Positions 21,277 through 29,214 of a stretch of DNA of 64,000 bases are shown here, in pieces. Within the stretch, counting starts at the first letter, position 1, and each line of letters starts with the position of its first letter. The notes below the pieces were generated by a model that was not told the origin of the DNA, did not search any database, and was given only the letters and a program-made list of their open reading frames with translations. This DNA comes from Pirellulaceae bacterium (lineage in GTDB: Bacteria > Planctomycetota > Planctomycetia > Pirellulales > Pirellulaceae): NCBI GenBank assembly GCA_029243025.1, contig JAQWSU010000009.1:1-64000 (forward strand), in the 5' to 3' direction. The translations under genes were made by a program, and so were the position numbers.

Positions 21277-23886
21277 ATGAAATGGTCTGGAATCATCATT
21301 GCCAGTTTGATGTTCAACAGCTTCGATGTTGTCACCGCTCAAGATCACCTTCCATCGGCTGATCAGCGTTTTGGAAATCGTTACACGGTTTCCGTGCCAG
21401 ATTTTCAAAAGCATGTCATACCGTTGCTGGGGCGACTTGGTTGCAATGGGGCGAAATGTCACGGCTCGTTTCAGGGCCAAGGAGGTTTGCGTCTTTCCTT
21501 GTTTGGATTCGATTTCCAAGCCGATCACGCAGCACTGCGGGCGGAAGCGTCCTCAGAGCTCGGCAATCGCCTGAACTTAAGTCGACCAGAAGAAAGCTTG
21601 CTCGTGCTCAAGCCCACCGAGCAGATCGATCATGGCGGAGGCAAGCGACTTAAAGTTGATTCGTGGGAACACCACTTGCTCTTGCGGTGGATCCAGTCGG
21701 GTGGGGCAGGTGCTGAACGAGCAACGGCCGAAAACGTTCGGCCTTCCGAAAAACAGTTTTCCGATAAACAGGTTGCCTTCTTTGAAGAAAAAATTCAGCC
21801 GCTATTCGAAAGTCATTGCTTTGAATGTCACGGTCACGGCGATCCAAAGGCAGGATTTCAAGCCATCTCGCGAGAGACGTTGCTGCAAGGCGGGAAATCG
21901 GGAGTCGCCGTTGTGCCGGACGATCCTCAGCAAAGTCTCTTGATGCAGGCGGTAAACTACAGCAACGACGATCTCAAAATGCCGCCCAGCGGTAAGCTGA
22001 AACCAGGGGAAATTGCGGATCTTGAACAATGGATTCGCATGGGAGTTCCTTGGTCAGATCGCTATGGATCAGCGCCTGTCGAAACGAGTCAAACACTGGT
22101 CTCGCTGTACTGTGAGCCTGCAGAGATTGTTTTTCAGCAAACAGGCGATCAGTCCCAAATTCGAATCGTGGCCGAGTGGGAGAGCGGTGAACGCGAGGAT
22201 GTCACCTGTTTGACTCGCTTTCAGACCAACGATGATGCGGTGGTAAGTGTGGACCCAAGTGGATTAGCGACTGCGGTGGGGCAGGGCGATACGCATGTCA
22301 TCGCGTTTTATGACAACGGCGTTGTTGCAATTCCTGTCTTACAGCCGTTTCAACATCACCCCTTGTTGAATGCGACTTTGGAACAAACAGACAATCCTTC
22401 CGGCCAATCGGTGATCCTACCTATCGATCGTTTGGTCAACGAAAAGCTTGGCAAGCTTGGCCTTCGACCATCGCAGCTCTGTAGCGATGCTGAATTTCTG
22501 CGACGCGTCAGCATCGACATGACGGGTACGCTGCCGGCGCCGGACGAGGTTCTGGAGTTTCTGTCGGACTCGACCAAAGACAAACGATCTCAGAAGATCA
22601 ACGAATTGCTCAAACGCCCCGCCTATGCGGCTTGGTGGGCTAACAAGCTGTGCGACTTTACTGGTTGTAATCCTGCCTCGATTCAAAGTCTGCTGGAAAC
22701 GGCCACCGAAACTGGCTATGTGAAAGCCTCCGAATGGTATGACTGGATCTTTGATCGGATTGGTCGCAATCAGCCCTATGATGATCTCGTCGCAGGGATC
22801 ATGTTGGCGCAATTGGCAGAAACAGGCGAGGGGATGCCGTATTTTTGGACTCGCCAGAGTCTCAAGGAGCCCAAGGATACCGCGATGTCGGTGGCACATG
22901 CATTTCTCGGTATTCAATTGCAGTGTGCCGAGTGCCATAAGCATCCATTCGATCGCTGGACCCAAACCGATTTTAATGAGTTCGCTCGGTTTTTTGATCC
23001 CCTCACGGCCGGTCGCCGGACGGCAGTCGTCGACAATGATCGATCCTTGCGTTTGTTGCGAAGTCATAAGGTGATGCTCCAGGCAGGTGACGATCCCCGC
23101 AAACCCATCATGGACTGGCTTCGAGATCCAGCTAATCCCTGGTTCGCGCGCGCGTTTGTCAATCGAGTCTGGGCAGGCTATTTCAACCGGGGGATTGTCG
23201 ATCCTCCGGATCAATTTACACCGGCGAACCCAGCCAGCAATCCTGCGCTACTGGATTGGCTGACTGCGCAATTTATCGAAAATGGTTTTGATATGAAGTG
23301 GTTGCATCGCACGATTGCCAATAGTCGTACCTATCAACGAAGCTGGAAACCCAACGAGACAAATCGAAACGATCGACGAAATTACAGTCGAGCCGTTCCT
23401 CGCCGAATACCGGCGGAAGTGGTTTACGATGCGATTAAGCAGGCGACGGCTTCCGACGAAAAACAAGCTCAAGTCAGAATTGATTTGCGGCGCCGTGCCT
23501 CAGGACATCTTTCCATGCGGATGGCTGGAACCCATGCGATGAAGGTGTTTGGGAAACCCGATCGATCGCTCAATTGTGATTGTGAACGAGTCAATGCACC
23601 GAATTTGCTTCAGTCAATTTTTCTTCAAAATGATCCACTCGTTCGCATGCGGATTGCTGACAGTGAATGGATTATCCAAATCGAAGATGACGAGCAGAAG
23701 CAAATATCGATTGAAAAGAATGATTTCGTTGAACAAGCGTGGTTGCGGACCGTAAATCGACCGCCGAGCCCTGCGGAATTCGACCGTTCCTTACGACATA
23801 TCGATTCCGTCATGACCGTCAGTGAAGGGATCAGCGATCTGATGTGGGCATTGATTAACACGAAAGAATTTCTTTTGAATCATTGA
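21277..23886 (+). CDS. PSCyt1/DUF1549/DUF1553 cytochrome-type protein
   Basis: 869 residues with signal peptide (to about TAQ, ~22). Three haem-type motifs are visible: CNGAKCH (CX4CH, ~54) in the PSCyt-like N-terminus, CFECH (~182) in the PSCyt1 domain, and CAECH (~549) inside DUF1549. A BIG_2-like domain (IRIVAEWESGEREDVT) lies near 290-370. DUF1549 starts about 390 (IDRLVNEKLGKLG, LRRVSIDMTGTLPAPDEV), and DUF1553 follows (ARAFVNRVWAGYFNRGIVDP). These planctomycete proteins are exported and probably redox-active, but the reaction is unknown. It is paired with a DUF1501 protein 30 bases downstream, the usual arrangement. Confidence 0.93.
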   Translation: MKWSGIIIASLMFNSFDVVTAQDHLPSADQRFGNRYTVSVPDFQKHVIPLLGRLGCNGAKCHGSFQGQGGLRLSLFGFDFQADHAALRAEASSELGNRLNLSRPEESLLVLKPTEQIDHGGGKRLKVDSWEHHLLLRWIQSGGAGAERATAENVRPSEKQFSDKQVAFFEEKIQPLFESHCFECHGHGDPKAGFQAISRETLLQGGKSGVAVVPDDPQQSLLMQAVNYSNDDLKMPPSGKLKPGEIADLEQWIRMGVPWSDRYGSAPVETSQTLVSLYCEPAEIVFQQTGDQSQIRIVAEWESGEREDVTCLTRFQTNDDAVVSVDPSGLATAVGQGDTHVIAFYDNGVVAIPVLQPFQHHPLLNATLEQTDNPSGQSVILPIDRLVNEKLGKLGLRPSQLCSDAEFLRRVSIDMTGTLPAPDEVLEFLSDSTKDKRSQKINELLKRPAYAAWWANKLCDFTGCNPASIQSLLETATETGYVKASEWYDWIFDRIGRNQPYDDLVAGIMLAQLAETGEGMPYFWTRQSLKEPKDTAMSVAHAFLGIQLQCAECHKHPFDRWTQTDFNEFARFFDPLTAGRRTAVVDNDRSLRLLRSHKVMLQAGDDPRKPIMDWLRDPANPWFARAFVNRVWAGYFNRGIVDPPDQFTPANPASNPALLDWLTAQFIENGFDMKWLHRTIANSRTYQRSWKPNETNRNDRRNYSRAVPRRIPAEVVYDAIKQATASDEKQAQVRIDLRRRASGHLSMRMAGTHAMKVFGKPDRSLNCDCERVNAPNLLQSIFLQNDPLVRMRIADSEWIIQIEDDEQKQISIEKNDFVEQAWLRTVNRPPSPAEFDRSLRHIDSVMTVSEGISDLMWALINTKEFLLNH

Positions 23887-23916
23887 ATCCATGTTAATGG
23901 AAAGAGTGAAACCAAG

Positions 23917-25194
23917 ATGCGGAATCGAATCAATCGTCGAGAGTTGCTCAAGATCGGTATGCTTGGTACCGGTTTGACACTATCGCAATGGTTGCGAATT
24001 CAGGCGGCCGAGCAAACGCCGAAAGAAAAACGTTCTGCCATCTTTATTTTCATGGAAGGCGCGCCGTCTCATCAGGACACCTTCGATATGAAGCCTAACG
24101 CGCCGGTTGATATTCGCGGTGCGTTTCAACCGATCGCTACCAATGTGCCGGGTGTGCAGATTTGCGAACAGATGCCCCGATTGGCGGAGCGGGCAAATCG
24201 GTTTGCGGTGATTCGTGGGGTCACTCACAGCGTTGCAGATCATGGACTCGCGAAAAAATATTTGTTGACGGGAAATAAACCATCGCAAACCGTCAGTTAT
24301 CCGGAATACGGTAGCGTCGTTAGTCACGAGCATCCGTCGGCACCCAATTTGCCTACCTATGTTTCAATTGATGAGTCGTTTGTCGGACCGGGGTATCTTG
24401 GTGCTCAATACAGCGCTCTGACTGCAGAGAAACCTCGTCACGGCATCGCCTACAAGGTGCGGGGAGTTTCTCTGGAGGAAGGGCTCTCTGTGGCGAAATA
24501 TCGATCGCAGAAACAACTCCTTGAGGATCTTGATCTGACGTTTCGAGGTTTTGAAGATTTAGACGATCAGGTACGTGGGATGGATCGCTTTACGGAGCAG
24601 GCTTATGACATTATCAGCTCACCTCAGACACGCGCCGCCTTTGATTTGTCTCAAGAAAAAACGACGGAGAGTGACCGGTTTGGAAAACATGAGTTTGGCC
24701 AATCGATGTTGCTTGCCGCGCGACTAATTGAAGCGGGCGTGCATTTTGTTACGGTCCGATTGCGACCCGCTGATTTTGATTTTGATACGCATTCGGATAA
24801 TTTCCCCAGGCTGCAACGTCTTTTGCCACCGTTTGATCGCGGCTTGGCCGCGCTGCTTGATCGCCTTGAGGAACGAGGCATGTTGAGCACGACGGCCATT
24901 CTTGCCTGTGGTGAGTTTGGTCGCACGCCGAAAATCAATCCTGCCGGAGGCCGTGACCATTGGGCGAGAGCCATGTGTGCGGTGATGGCTGGCGGTGATG
25001 TTCGAGGCGGTCGAGCGATTGGTGAAACGGACGACACTGCGGCGGAACCTAAGTCGGTCGGATTTTCGCCCGATGATCTTGCCGCGTCGTTTTATCAAAA
25101 CATTGGAATTTCTTCTGATCGCGAGTTTCAAACGAATGTCGGTCGCCCGATCATGCTGTTGCGAGAGGGACGTCCGATCGCTGAGCTCTTTTAA
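23917..25194 (+). CDS. DUF1501 family secreted protein
   Basis: 425 residues. The N-terminus is a Tat-like signal (NRRELLKIGMLGTGL). The body matches DUF1501, a relative of the alkaline phosphatase/sulfatase superfamily: IFIFMEGAPSHQDTFDMKP near the start, HSVADHGLAKKYLLTGN, DFDTHSDNF (~285) and ACGEFGRTPKINPAGGRDHW (~330), which supply the metal-binding-type Asp and His residues. Such proteins are always found beside PSCyt1/DUF1549/DUF1553 proteins, as here. Role unknown, presumably with its partner in the extracytoplasmic space. Last gene of the plus-strand block. Confidence 0.93.
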   Translation: MRNRINRRELLKIGMLGTGLTLSQWLRIQAAEQTPKEKRSAIFIFMEGAPSHQDTFDMKPNAPVDIRGAFQPIATNVPGVQICEQMPRLAERANRFAVIRGVTHSVADHGLAKKYLLTGNKPSQTVSYPEYGSVVSHEHPSAPNLPTYVSIDESFVGPGYLGAQYSALTAEKPRHGIAYKVRGVSLEEGLSVAKYRSQKQLLEDLDLTFRGFEDLDDQVRGMDRFTEQAYDIISSPQTRAAFDLSQEKTTESDRFGKHEFGQSMLLAARLIEAGVHFVTVRLRPADFDFDTHSDNFPRLQRLLPPFDRGLAALLDRLEERGMLSTTAILACGEFGRTPKINPAGGRDHWARAMCAVMAGGDVRGGRAIGETDDTAAEPKSVGFSPDDLAASFYQNIGISSDREFQTNVGRPIMLLREGRPIAELF

Positions 25195-25398: not shown

Positions 25399-26226
25399 TC
25401 AGGAATCGGATTGCTTAGCCGGATCGGCCAGCAGTTGCTTGAGCATCGGTTTAATTGCATTCGCCCAGGCGTCGGCACCAGCCGGACTAGGGTGTAGCAA
25501 GTCCCACATTAGATTGGTGTTGAGGGTGCCATCCGATCGCAGAAAAATCTGATTAATGTCGAGCCAGAAGACTTGTCGGTTGTCTGCGAGTTGCTTCGTC
25601 AATTCGCCGGCGCGACGACACGTTTCGATGCACTGAGCCGAAGAATGAAAGATCGGCGGACTGATACCCTGCTCGTTGTCGCCGCCGCGTGGGAAAATTC
25701 GCAGGATGAGAATCTTAGTCGTTGGATGTTTCTGTTGAATGAGTTCGACAATGGCCTTCGTACCGGCGAAAATCTCTTTGGCGGTGTGGACGGTCTTGAA
25801 ATGTCGGTCATCGCTGTTGTTTGTGCCGATCAACAAGACGGCGACCTTGGGAGATTGCTTAAAGTCTAACTCCCCATTTTGAAGATTCCAAAGAATCTGC
25901 TCAGTTCGGTAACCGCTATAGCCAAGATTTATTGCCTTGAGCGGCGCAAAATGTTTTTTCCACACGGCTTTCATCGGTGCATATTTACCACCGAAGTCAC
26001 CCACCGTATGAGTGATAGAATCACCAATCAACGCTACGTCGTAGTCGCCACTCTTCACCGCAGCAACTTTCTGCGTGTGACGCTCACTCGGTGACGGTTG
26101 TGGAACGTTGGCCGCACCAGGCCGAATTGCGTCCTGCGACATTCCTGTCATAAGGAATGTCGAAATCGATAACAAAAAAACCAGGATTCGAATAGCGCGG
26201 GGTTGTCGGTGGCTCAAGCTTCTCAT
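25399..26226 (-). CDS. Secreted SGNH/GDSL-family hydrolase
   Basis: 275 residues with signal peptide (VFLLSISTFLMTGMSQDA). SGNH blocks are in place: IGDSITHTVGDF (catalytic Ser, block I), NLGYSGYRTEQILW (Gly, block II), LLIGTNNSDD (Asn, block III) and DLLHPSPAG (Asp-x-x-His, block V). This is the family of platelet-activating-factor acetylhydrolase-like esterases that planctomycetes use to deacetylate glycans, although the substrate here is not known. It lies downstream of the thioredoxin-like gene on the same strand, 156 bases away, and is convergent with the DUF1501 gene. Confidence 0.9.
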   Translation of the reverse strand: MRSLSHRQPRAIRILVFLLSISTFLMTGMSQDAIRPGAANVPQPSPSERHTQKVAAVKSGDYDVALIGDSITHTVGDFGGKYAPMKAVWKKHFAPLKAINLGYSGYRTEQILWNLQNGELDFKQSPKVAVLLIGTNNSDDRHFKTVHTAKEIFAGTKAIVELIQQKHPTTKILILRIFPRGGDNEQGISPPIFHSSAQCIETCRRAGELTKQLADNRQVFWLDINQIFLRSDGTLNTNLMWDLLHPSPAGADAWANAIKPMLKQLLADPAKQSDS

Positions 26227-26382
26227 GAATTACAGTCCTCTCAGCTAAAACTGGCAAGTTAATCTGATTGCGTCTCCAAGGGTAGCGACGTCATGGACGT
26301 GTTGCCAACACGATGCGTGAATGGTCGAAACAAACGTTTGCCATGACGGCAATTCATTTGATGCCACTTCTTGCCCGATCCA

Positions 26383-27495
26383 TCACTCCGAATCGAGTTC
26401 CTGCGAAGCATTTCCTTCTGCCAGCAGTTCTTCAAGGTGCTTCGCCATGATTTCTTGTCCGCCTGCTCCTTGCCAATCGAGTTCGCCATACCACCAGTAA
26501 CGGATACGACCTTGCTTGTCGATTAAATAGACGCTGGGCCAAATCGAATTTCCCCATTCATTCCAGATTTGCTTTTCATTGTCGACGACAATTGGAAAGC
26601 GAAACGCCGCTTCTTCCACTTTGGCTCGAACTCGTCTGATTTCGCTTTCACTGGAGGTCTCAGGAGTATGAACTCCCAAGACGACCAATCCCTGATCTCC
26701 ATAAGTTTTGTCCCAACCCTTGTACCAAGGGTAGTTGCGAATGCAATTGATTCAGCCGAAGGCCCAGAAATGCAACGCCACCACTTTTCCGCGAAGCTCG
26801 GAGAGCTCCAGTGGGGGGGAATTGATCCAAACACCGTCCTCAGACAGATGGGGTGCTCGAAAGGCAACCTTGCCAAGTTGCCGTATGTCGAAACTGCGAC
26901 CTACAAGCGCTACCAGGGTTTCTTTCTGTTTGTCGTCGATTGCTGACAGAATCTGTCGCTGCAATTCGGTCTGGGCTTTTGCCGCAGCTTGGTTTGCAGT
27001 AGTAAGAGTTTGCTTGCCTTCTGTCATTTGCTTTTGAATTTGACGTACTGCTTGTTGCGATTCATTGATGAGTCCCTGGATCTCTTCTTTCTGATTCGCT
27101 GTAAGCTCTAATGCTTTGGCCGCCTCGTCAGTAAGAACAAAGGGAATCCCTCGCACTCGATATTTGATTTGCCGGAGTCGATTTAGTTGATCTTTTGTAA
27201 ACAGATTTTCCAAGGCCTGATCCGTTTGGGCGATAGCTCTTCGCACCGAGGCTTGAGCCGTCTCAGCTGCCTTGTTTCTCGACGCCAATAGGCTCCCGTC
27301 GAGCTTTTCATTCAAATTTCTTAGTTTTTTGAGCTGGAGGTCGCTAAGTTTCAGATCGCGGTGGACCGCCGGTTCACGCAATAAAAAAAGCAGTGAGTTT
27401 GGCATTGTGGCATAGTTCGTGACGTTTTGTGCAAATGCAATCGTTGCGGAAAAACTAAACCACATAATGAACGCAACGAATAATTTTTGGTGCAT
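26383..27495 (-). CDS. Secreted thioredoxin-like protein, candidate selenoprotein (in-frame UGA)
   Basis: 370 codons if the TGA at 26752-26754 is read through; otherwise a 247-residue truncation. A signal peptide (to FAQ, ~22) is followed by a helical region of the LTxxQ type (LELTANQKEEIQGLINESQ). The redoxin/thioredoxin fold follows: VVALHFWAFG-[TGA]-INCIRNYPWYKGW, then GLVVLGVHTPETSSE, RFPIVVDNEKQIWNEWGNS and the cis-Pro region WPSVYLIDKQG. The TGA (codon 248) is exactly at the first Cys of the CxxC active site, giving UINC. The frame downstream is intact for 123 codons. A hairpin lies at a SECIS-like distance after it (separate entry). Alternatives are a recent Cys-to-stop mutation or a base error. 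It is divergent from msrA. Confidence 0.75.
26716..26754 (-). promoter_or_regulatory. Candidate bacterial SECIS element after in-frame UGA
   Basis: Read on the minus strand, the UGA (26754-26752) is followed after 25 bases by a hairpin ACCCTT-GGTAC-AAGGGT: a perfect 6-bp stem (26732-26727 with 26721-26716) with a 5-nt loop starting GGU. Bacterial SECIS elements have their apical loop roughly 16-37 bases after the UGA and a G in the first two loop positions; both hold here. Short stems of this sort arise by chance, so the support is moderate. Confidence 0.5.
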
Positions 27496-27873
27496 TCGAC
27501 TCTCCCCGGGTGTTTGTAAAAGGATTGCGCCTTCGAACGAATTTCCCTAAAAGTTACTCACCTGATAGGCTGAAGAGTATACCAAGCTCGTTACATGATT
27601 AGAGGGTGATTGTTATTTGCACGAAGTCACGTTTTTTGTTTTTCTCCGATCGAAAACCCCTAACTCAAAGTCGAGACGGAGGCAGAGTTGATAAGGGATT
27701 CTGCGATCCGCGTAATTTGGGATGACTGTCGAGGAAAGGTTTTGGTTCTCATTCCCAGGTGAGTTGCCTAAACTAAAGAGTCCCAAAAGGTTGACAAAAA
27801 ACCTATATTTCGGACAGTCAACGAAAGATCAGAAAACAGAAAAGATCGGTCCCCCATTGGGAGAATGTTAGCC
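27496..27873. other. Divergent promoter region, thioredoxin-like gene / msrA
   Basis: About 380 bases between the two divergent starts. It is AT-rich near 27625-27660, and GGGAG at 27859 sets the msrA start. No RNA gene, repeat or clear operator was recognised. Confidence 0.5.
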
Positions 27874-28593
27874 ATGCCACTGCAACGGATGATCTTGCCC
27901 TTTAGCTGCTTTCTGATAATTGCATGTTTGGTGTTGTCGGTCCGTGCCCAAAGCGGCGTGCATCGCAACACGACCAATCAGCTAGAATCGACATTCAGAG
28001 ATCTCGAGCGAAGTGGAATCGATGGAGATGATAAAACGAATCGTGACCCGGGAAAACTGGCCGTTGCGACTTTCGGGAACGGTTGCTATTGGTGCACCGA
28101 AGCGATCTTTGAACAGTTAAAAGGAGTCAAGACGGTTACATCTGGGTTTTCGGGCGGCGTCGTCCCGAATCCAACCTACAAGCAAGTTCTCACCGGGAGG
28201 ACCGGGCATGCCGAAGTTGTCCAGATTGAGTACGATCCAGATGAGATTTCTTTCGCGCGTTTGCTAGAAGCATTTTGGTTGTCGCACGATCCGACGACGC
28301 TGAATCGACAGGGACCGGATGTAGGAACGCAGTACCGGTCTGCCGTGTTTTACCATGATGATCGCCAGCGCGAAGCGGCTGAACGATTCAAGGCAGAGTT
28401 GAATAAGTCGAAAGCATTCCGTAAGCCAATCGTGACTGAGGTGACGAAATTTCAAGCGTTCTATCCGGCCCAAGCCTATCACCAAGACTACTTTGAAAAC
28501 AACGGTCGACAGCCCTACTGCCAGTTTCATATTCGCCCCAAACTCAAGAAATTTAAACGAGTTTTTCGCGAACACCTTGAATTAAAACAGTAA
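27874..28593 (+). CDS. msrA: Secreted peptide methionine sulfoxide reductase MsrA
   Basis: 239 residues from the ATG at 27874, chosen because the Shine-Dalgarno GGGAG lies 9-10 bases upstream; it abuts the alternative ATG at 27865, which is too close. A signal peptide (LPFSCFLIIACLVLSVRA) implies export. MsrA reduces the S-epimer of methionine sulfoxide. The active site GNGCYWCTE (Cys71) and GFSGG, TGHAEVVQIEYDP, and YHQDYFENN are all present. It is followed by msrB on the same strand (81-base gap), so the pair can repair both epimers outside the cytoplasm. Active-site Cys, not Sec, is encoded. Confidence 0.96.
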   Translation: MPLQRMILPFSCFLIIACLVLSVRAQSGVHRNTTNQLESTFRDLERSGIDGDDKTNRDPGKLAVATFGNGCYWCTEAIFEQLKGVKTVTSGFSGGVVPNPTYKQVLTGRTGHAEVVQIEYDPDEISFARLLEAFWLSHDPTTLNRQGPDVGTQYRSAVFYHDDRQREAAERFKAELNKSKAFRKPIVTEVTKFQAFYPAQAYHQDYFENNGRQPYCQFHIRPKLKKFKRVFREHLELKQ

Positions 28594-28674: not shown

Positions 28675-29214
28675 ATGTTACGAAAACGAAAATCACCAAT
28701 GTGTCTCTTCGGTTTATTCGCTTGCTTGGCAACAGTGTCCGCGGTTCGAGGCGAATCGGGCACGGTGGAAACCAAGGAACCCAAGAAGATTGTCAAAACA
28801 GATGCGCAGTGGCGAAAGCAGCTGACTCGGATGCAGTACAAAGTGACACGAAAGGCGGGAACGGAGCGCGCTTTCAGTGGAAAGTACTGGAACAATAAAG
28901 CAGATGGCAGTTACCTGTGTGTGTGTTGTGACGAGCCTTTGTTTGCTTCGCAGACCAAATTCAAATCAGGTACAGGGTGGCCCAGTTTTTACGCTCCGAT
29001 CGAAAAGAAACAGGTTGAGGAACGGCTTGACCGCGGTTTCTTTTCAGTCCGAACGGAAGTGGTCTGTCGACGATGTGATGCGCATCTTGGTCACGTCTTC
29101 TCGGATGGCCCTCGTCCGACAGGACTTCGGTACTGTATAAACTCCGTTGCGTTGAAGTTTGAGTCGAACGGCAAGGAGTCGTCGGATAAGAAGAGCAGTG
29201 CTGATAAAAAGTGA
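28675..29214 (+). CDS. msrB: Secreted peptide methionine sulfoxide reductase MsrB
   Basis: 179 residues. GGAGG lies 7 bases before the ATG. The N-terminus has a signal peptide ([18 protein letters not shown]). MsrB reduces the R-epimer of methionine sulfoxide in proteins. Zinc-site CxxC pairs are visible ([25 protein letters not shown]). GTGWPSF is the substrate-pocket block, and the catalytic RYCINS places Cys154. A Lys/Ser/Asp-rich tail ends the protein. It works with MsrA upstream; both need an electron donor, for which the divergent exported thioredoxin-like protein is a candidate (inference). Confidence 0.96.

Follow-up and report, generated by a model that had tools for sequence, protein, structure and literature searches.

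The frame at positions 26,383 to 27,495 (minus strand) of contig JAQWSU010000009.1 from a Pirellulaceae bacterium very probably encodes an exported planctomycete selenoprotein, in which UGA 26752-26754 would be read as selenocysteine (Sec) by way of a hairpin located immediately downstream; this reading is drawn from sequence comparison. Throughout, "the window" designates the whole stretch of DNA that was analysed, namely the first 64,000 nucleotides of this contig. In the mechanism proposed, the hairpin, itself part of the coding sequence, would place SelB with its Sec-tRNA-Sec so that the ribosome then reads the UGA as Sec, and the product would consist of a signal peptide, a helical domain and a thioredoxin domain of the DipZ/SOQ1/NHLRC2 type whose CxxC motif has become U-I-N-C. 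Incorporation of Sec in vivo, export and the direction of the redox reaction are what we infer for this protein. The same reading had been put forward in an earlier note made from the letters of the window, and it is supported by the exchange of TGA and Cys at a single site among homologues, by a conserved and covarying hairpin and by the presence of the Sec machinery in the genome.

The interrupted gene and its product

The frame holds a sole internal stop, the TGA at codon 248; 122 sense codons follow it before the terminator TGA is reached. The internal TGA is aligned with the first Cys of the C-I-N-C motif of DipZ, SOQ1 and NHLRC2, and the description in the earlier note of a redoxin frame broken solely at the first Cys of CxxC is thus confirmed (Table 1). 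In a six-frame scan of the whole window, TGA codons with 70 or more sense codons both before and after them occur at 18 places; judged by eye, only TGA 26752-26754 lies in a redoxin active-site context, and the other 17 have no redox context. Annotation software would probably truncate such a gene at the UGA or divide it in two.

Table 1. Coordinates of the predicted selenoprotein gene, its elements and its two neighbours in the window
Feature	Position	Strand	Description and basis
Predicted selenoprotein gene	26383..27495	-	370 codons plus TGA terminator; helical domain and UxxC thioredoxin-like (DipZ-type) domain
Probable Sec-type signal peptide	27430..27495	-	Residues 1-22, ending TIAFA/Q; by eye; low pLDDT over residues 1-26
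N-terminal all-helical domain	26902..27396	-	Residues 34-198, possibly LTXXQ-like; predicted structure
AhpC-TSA/Redoxin thioredoxin-like domain	26497..26811	-	Residues 229-333; PF00578 E 9e-13; matches to DipZ, SOQ1, NHLRC2 and ResA
In-frame TGA, probably read as Sec	26752..26754	-	Residue 248, first of U-I-N-C; homologue alignment
Presumed resolving Cys	26743..26745	-	Residue 251 of U-x-x-C; kept in 20 of 20 TGA genes
Candidate bSECIS hairpin	26716..26732	-	ACCCUU/GGUAC/AAGGGU; stem 26727-26732 with 26716-26721, loop GGUAC 26722-26726
Terminal TGA, true stop	26383..26385	-	Frame reading
msrA	27865..28593	+	PF01625 E 4e-65; TIGR00401 over cut-off
msrB	28675..29214	+	PF01641 E 2e-52; TIGR00357 over cut-off

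The whole protein is modelled with a mean pLDDT of 77.7, and the helical region modelled alone with a mean of 85.8. Among eight aligned members of the family, five match PF07813 (LTXXQ) at E <= 1, the best at 4.5e-7, and the window's own protein has no match to it in the same Pfam scan. A Foldseek search with the helical domain returned nothing at E <= 0.001, its weak matches including Spy and CnrX; that this domain serves as a chaperone-like or docking element is speculation. The redox domain scores 30.9 bits with PF08534, above the cut-off of 26.6, and is also above the cut-off of PF00578.

The C-terminal domain of DipZ from Mycobacterium tuberculosis (PDB 2hyx, 5cyy) is both the best PDB sequence match (E 4.5e-29) and the best Foldseek match, with 38% identity over 151 columns and its C-I-N-C aligned with U-I-N-C. 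DipZ has Cys where the window protein would have Sec, and the likeness is limited to the thioredoxin domain, which in the window protein is preceded by the helical domain. The other parts of DipZ are an N-terminal CcdA-like membrane part and a C-terminal carbohydrate-binding-like module, and neither is matched by Pfam in the 370 residues of the window protein. SOQ1 (7djj) and NHLRC2 (6gc1) likewise carry CINC thioredoxin-like domains. Both proteins also bear NHL repeats, for which the window protein has no Pfam match up to E 0.001. The window protein thus shares with these three proteins a thioredoxin-like fold and a CINC-type site, with Sec predicted in place of the first Cys; their treatment as a single CINC subgroup is our own grouping, suggested by the sequence matches. 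The thiol-disulfide oxidoreductases ResA, StoA and TlpA have the same fold, and although the ResA model is matched by all eight aligned members, the window protein reaches only 58 of the 170 bits required by NF002854, far under the curated cut-off. By analogy with the structural relatives, Sec248 would attack and Cys251 would resolve, and it is therefore most likely that the protein reduces disulfides or other oxidised thiols, or exchanges disulfides, outside the cytoplasm.

The earlier note had called this a new selenoprotein, a claim that stands for the subfamily and not for the kind, since UxxC redoxin or Prx-like selenoproteins are already in print, both in a 2026 catalogue of 119 families and subfamilies (PMC13188914 Table 1) and in tables of ocean surveys (PMC2398784 Table 2; PMC1088965). 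Catalogued UxxC Prx-like proteins, "Redoxin family proteins" and thiol-disulfide isomerase-like proteins resemble the window protein in having an AhpC/TSA-redoxin or thioredoxin-like domain with Sec first in CxxC and a predicted redox function; the combination of PF08534 and UxxC that defines the catalogued "Redoxin family protein" is found in the window protein, and the sequences behind that entry are HEU0032618.1 and MBA3499694.1. These entries are broad domain and motif classes compared here by their descriptions, and Table 1 of the catalogue names neither U-I-N-C, nor a DipZ-type core, nor the helical domain; no row of that table and no NCBIfam model was found to be specific to a UINC DipZ-like subfamily, some members of which may already be included in one of the broad classes of the catalogue. 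NCBIfam NF041054 ("ResA-like WAxxUGC") likewise places Sec in the active-site loop of a protein similar to ResA, but its motif is UGC rather than UINC and the window protein scores 28 bits where the cut-off is 300; all NCBIfam selenoprotein models stay under their cut-offs with the window protein, and WAxxUGC, far under cut-off, is the sole such match among the eight proteins scanned. Two planctomycetes from a red alga are reported to have selenoprotein genes (PMC4807772), and the literature searched, including the accessible parts of PMC1242214, PMC1794560, PMC9312934 and PMC5330540, yielded no description of the UINC subfamily.

As for the surroundings of the gene, msrA and msrB are transcribed away from it on the opposite strand. 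The earlier note had placed the gene beside msrA/msrB; both are indeed adjacent in the window, but a Pfam scan of ten frames that lie near the gene in four relatives (L053, L055, L056, L058) shows neither them nor any shared redox partner, and the neighbourhood was discarded as a functional clue. On the other side, about 1.2 kb beyond the gene, positions 21277-25194 hold a PSCyt/DUF1549-DUF1553 gene followed by a DUF1501 gene, and in L056 a PSCyt/DUF1501 pair lies directly upstream of the TGA gene. Such pairs are common planctomycete content, and the pair was set aside as a link to the selenoprotein gene.

TGA and cysteine at one site

Homologues were collected in three ways: from contigs (7 loci), with a protein query against 396 genomes of the order, 384 of which had matches, many being to remoter redoxins, and with a profile against 297 genomes of the class, 76 of which matched at E <= 1e-50. 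Among the loci read first (L022-L138, 117 in number), the motif search missed 12 and misread one; these 13 were read by tblastn and all have Cys. Once L053, L058 and L059 had been dropped as second copies or records, 114 genes remained, 10 with TGA and 104 with Cys; an additional 37 loci of the class contributed 10 TGA and 27 Cys genes. L058 is the TGA-form locus of a cultured strain, Planctomycetes bacterium K23_9, whose complete genome is CP036526.1. The reading covers every listed match containing TGA, the distant redoxins and some lower-ranked close matches being left out. Thus, among the matches listed, the site alternates between TGA (20) and Cys (131) in 151 planctomycete homologues, and wherever it is not TGA it is always Cys and never Trp. 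A strict pattern of the TGA site, of a kind that would miss some variants, is found across the phylum in 1 of 392 genomes, the window's own. One TGA gene of genome G080 is present on two contigs (L028 and L059), one copy being cut by the contig end; this duplication is likely to be assembly redundancy, a contamination of 8% being stated for that genome.

Sixteen of the 20 TGA genes fall in families f1, f3, f5, f17, f21, f118 and f121 of the class and the remaining four in the named records L052, L054, L055 and L056; some of the TGA genomes share a genus (G945 with G897, G858 with G888, G951 with G835). Behind the TGA, the conserved frame is 112-122 codons long in the ten genes read first and 112-119 codons long in the ten read later. 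These observations bear on the rival that the earlier note had itself raised, a Cys gene struck by a recent nonsense mutation (or misread in sequencing), which would make the window gene a pseudogene or an artefact. While a change from TGC or TGT to TGA takes a single base, the same codon is TGA in 20 genomes of several families with the downstream frame conserved, and the TGA genes carry a covarying hairpin that the Cys genes counted do not share. A single Cys-to-stop mutation is excluded because 20 genomes share the TGA, and the probability left to mutation or error in general is very small.

The TGA could also be a functional, programmed stop, the real product being the truncated protein of 247 residues (signal peptide and helical domain) and the remainder an occasional readthrough. 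The N-terminal part is indeed predicted to fold as a domain of its own, and without selenium termination at the UGA would give exactly this truncated product. Against it, both the downstream frame and the second Cys of the motif are kept in all 20 TGA genes, and short forms exist in families f118 and f121 (L226-L231), where by eye the signal peptide is soon followed by the UxxC redox domain; the helical domain is absent from five f118 forms and one f121 form, so that truncation there leaves little beyond the signal peptide. We regard a programmed stop as highly improbable and retain the reading of the TGA as Sec.

The hairpin behind the TGA

As the earlier note had described, a 6-bp hairpin with a GGTAC loop begins 19 nucleotides past the TGA, the loop itself starting 25 nucleotides past it. 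The limits published for bacterial SECIS elements (bSECIS) are a loop of 3-9 nt, a stem of 4-16 bp and a minimum free energy of at most -7.5 (legend of Fig. 2A of PMC13188914), together with a G in the first two loop positions and a distance of 16-37 nt from UGA to loop (same source). The window hairpin lies inside them, with a loop of 5 nt starting with GG, a stem of 6 bp, a spacing of 25 nt and, for a stretch of 55 nt, a folding energy of -11.8 kcal/mol; among the first ten TGA genes, the nine besides the window's also fold within the energy limit.

Folding energy of single sequences was tried as evidence and given up in favour of pair and codon tests. The fold of the 55 nt is unexceptional (z -1.61; 11 of 200 shuffles fold as well), 18 out of 83 Cys homologues folded over the equivalent 36 nt likewise reach -7.5 kcal/mol, and the fraction of synonymous versions that fold as well ranges from 0.023 to 0.154 across the first ten TGA genes taken individually. 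Because a lone fold is of this ordinary quality and Cys homologues pass as well, the weight of the hairpin rests on the relatives.

In 18 of the 20 TGA genes the hairpin is shared, 19 nt past the TGA, with four to six of the six Watson-Crick pairs (six in 11 genes, five in 6 and four in one), that is, 92.6% of the stem cells are paired; when G-U is allowed, nine of the first ten TGA genes have six pairs and the tenth has five. The same stem has at most four pairs in the Cys genes (91 counted). Double changes that keep the pair are seen at three of the six pairs in nine cells of the 18-gene alignment: U-A has become C-G in six genes, C-G has become U-A in two and another C-G has become U-A in one. 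Not one shuffle in 500 equalled the observed covariation score, count of double-change cells or share of paired cells. Other shuffle measures are less clear, the number of pairs with a change on both sides being equalled by 6 of 500, and "further pair types" by 500 of 500, i.e., without excess over shuffles. Unaided, RNAalifold returns the same stem minus its outermost pair and plus one more at the loop; the outermost pair is absent in 7 of the 18 genes. The hairpin predicted here thus agrees with published bSECIS limits and covaries in relatives, as the earlier note's proposal of a SECIS element would have it, and an Rfam scan of 26000-28200 gave no match up to E 1.

Part of this conservation is protein conservation, since the hairpin overlaps conserved residues; the residues PWYKG alone permit some stem pairing. 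Synonymous recoding corrects for this: in 5000 trials, run with the window's codon usage for all genomes and on a stem originally delineated from a single member of the 18, 53.2 +/- 3.9 Watson-Crick pairs are expected, with a maximum of 70, and 100 of 108 are observed. One identical 21-mer is common to 9 of the 18 hairpins; when the window's 21-mer and repeats are removed, eight distinct versions hold 41 of 48 pairs. In the ten first TGA genes the commonest codon is retained at a mean of 0.94 in the five hairpin codons vs 0.58 elsewhere, a value reached by none of 200000 random draws from 87 conserved degenerate columns. Amino acids and codons change together. Lys AAG is paired with CCT or TCT in 12 of the 18 genes and Arg AGG with CCC in 6, and therefore the stem pairs; Tyr is encoded by TAT in the two genes in which Asp or Glu has replaced Gly, and one gene has Ser in place of both Pro and Gly, with a pair kept.

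The hairpin is less regular at the margins of the set. L231 keeps four Watson-Crick pairs, and the minimum-energy fold of 42 nt of L230 is a different structure of -6.5 kcal/mol that misses the energy limit. The shared hairpin is absent from the two genes of a single genus, L224 and L225, in which an alternative hairpin, CAA/GUC/UUG extended by further pairs, has the loop GUC with its opening G 32 nt past the TGA; its energy in L224 is borderline, from -6.9 to -8.8 kcal/mol depending on the stretch folded.

Selenocysteine machinery and the history of the family

The genome of the window (8.35 Mb in 60 contigs) contains the machinery that the Sec reading requires, the check proposed by the earlier note having returned selC, selA, selB and selD: a single tRNA-Sec (64.7 bits; anticodon TCA by ARAGORN), a SelA of 570 bits adjoining a SelB of 365 bits, and a SelD of 352 bits, whose gene is itself interrupted by an in-frame TGA, in the motif C-A-G-U-A-G-K. 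This latter TGA (L020:1531-1560, contig C60 of the window's genome) falls at what we take to be the usual Sec position, and behind it UUCCC and GGGAA are, by eye, able to pair; selD is probably a second selenoprotein gene of the genome.

At least one of tRNA-Sec, SelA and SelB is found in every one of the 20 TGA genomes. tRNA-Sec was called above 60 bits, with ARAGORN agreeing in every case but L153; weaker Rfam matches proved to be tRNA-Ser or tRNA-Leu (13 loci checked, L155-L167), and one match of 56 bits a tRNA-Cys. It is present in 15 of 20 TGA genomes vs 21 of 97 Cys genomes (Fisher p 9e-6, a value inflated by kinship), or, by set, in 8 of 10 TGA vs 9 of 70 Cys and in 7 of 10 TGA vs 12 of 27 Cys genomes. 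It was not found in five TGA genomes, with completeness of 76, 89, 94 and 95 and one not stated; G368 and G398 among them have SelA, and G922, G937 and G951 have SelB. For the two of these that belong to the first set, a laxer search gave no tRNA-Sec over cut-off either. SelA lies above cut-off in nine of the ten TGA genomes of the first set, in all six tested Cys genomes with tRNA-Sec and in one of eight tested Cys genomes without it (G261). SelB is found in 10 of 11 tested TGA genomes and in one of nine tested Cys genomes (G842, which has tRNA-Sec). Searches returned no SelA in G080, no SelB in G945 and, at E 1e-60, no SelB in G917, a genome with the Cys form and a tRNA-Sec. As 21 of 97 Cys genomes carry tRNA-Sec and G261 has SelA, the machinery by itself proves little.

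Its presence does bear on the question of whether suppression or an altered genetic code might have the UGA read as Cys or Trp instead of Sec. Any readthrough would restore the frame, but the same gene terminates at a TGA, the genome has a full Sec system, the homologous residue is Cys in the 131 non-TGA genes and never Trp, and a position-specific hairpin stands behind the TGA; such decoding is extremely improbable, and Sec is the reading kept in what follows.

In a tree of the 151 redox domains the TGA label requires 8 changes, with 4 of them forced by well-supported branches, vs 19.1 changes for shuffled labels; a tree of 114 redox domains requires 6 changes, 3 of them forced. Constraining the TGA genes to a single clade gives a borderline p-AU of 0.04, and by this test gains and losses are indistinguishable. 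Cys genes are nested within TGA groups, e.g., L025, which keeps CCUUGGUACAAGG of the hairpin, the residues PWYKG explaining part of it; in its genome, G099, the tRNA-Sec search was negative and the SelA match falls below cut-off. L025 may represent a loss of Sec with a remnant SECIS, and L224 and L225, with their differently placed hairpin, point either to a move of the SECIS or to a separate gain. We lean, by a small measure, towards a history in which the SECIS hairpin has shaped the protein and Sec has repeatedly entered or left this gene family, at least once with a differently placed hairpin.

The gene adds a predicted Sec form to a thioredoxin type that is also present in human NHLRC2 and plant SOQ1, and across its well-sampled relatives the hairpin, the choice of codons and the amino acids change jointly. 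If the history proposed is true, this planctomycete family would constitute a natural series of conversions between Cys and Sec; as the two forms stand side by side, a single protein would allow one to measure what Sec costs and what it gains compared with Cys.
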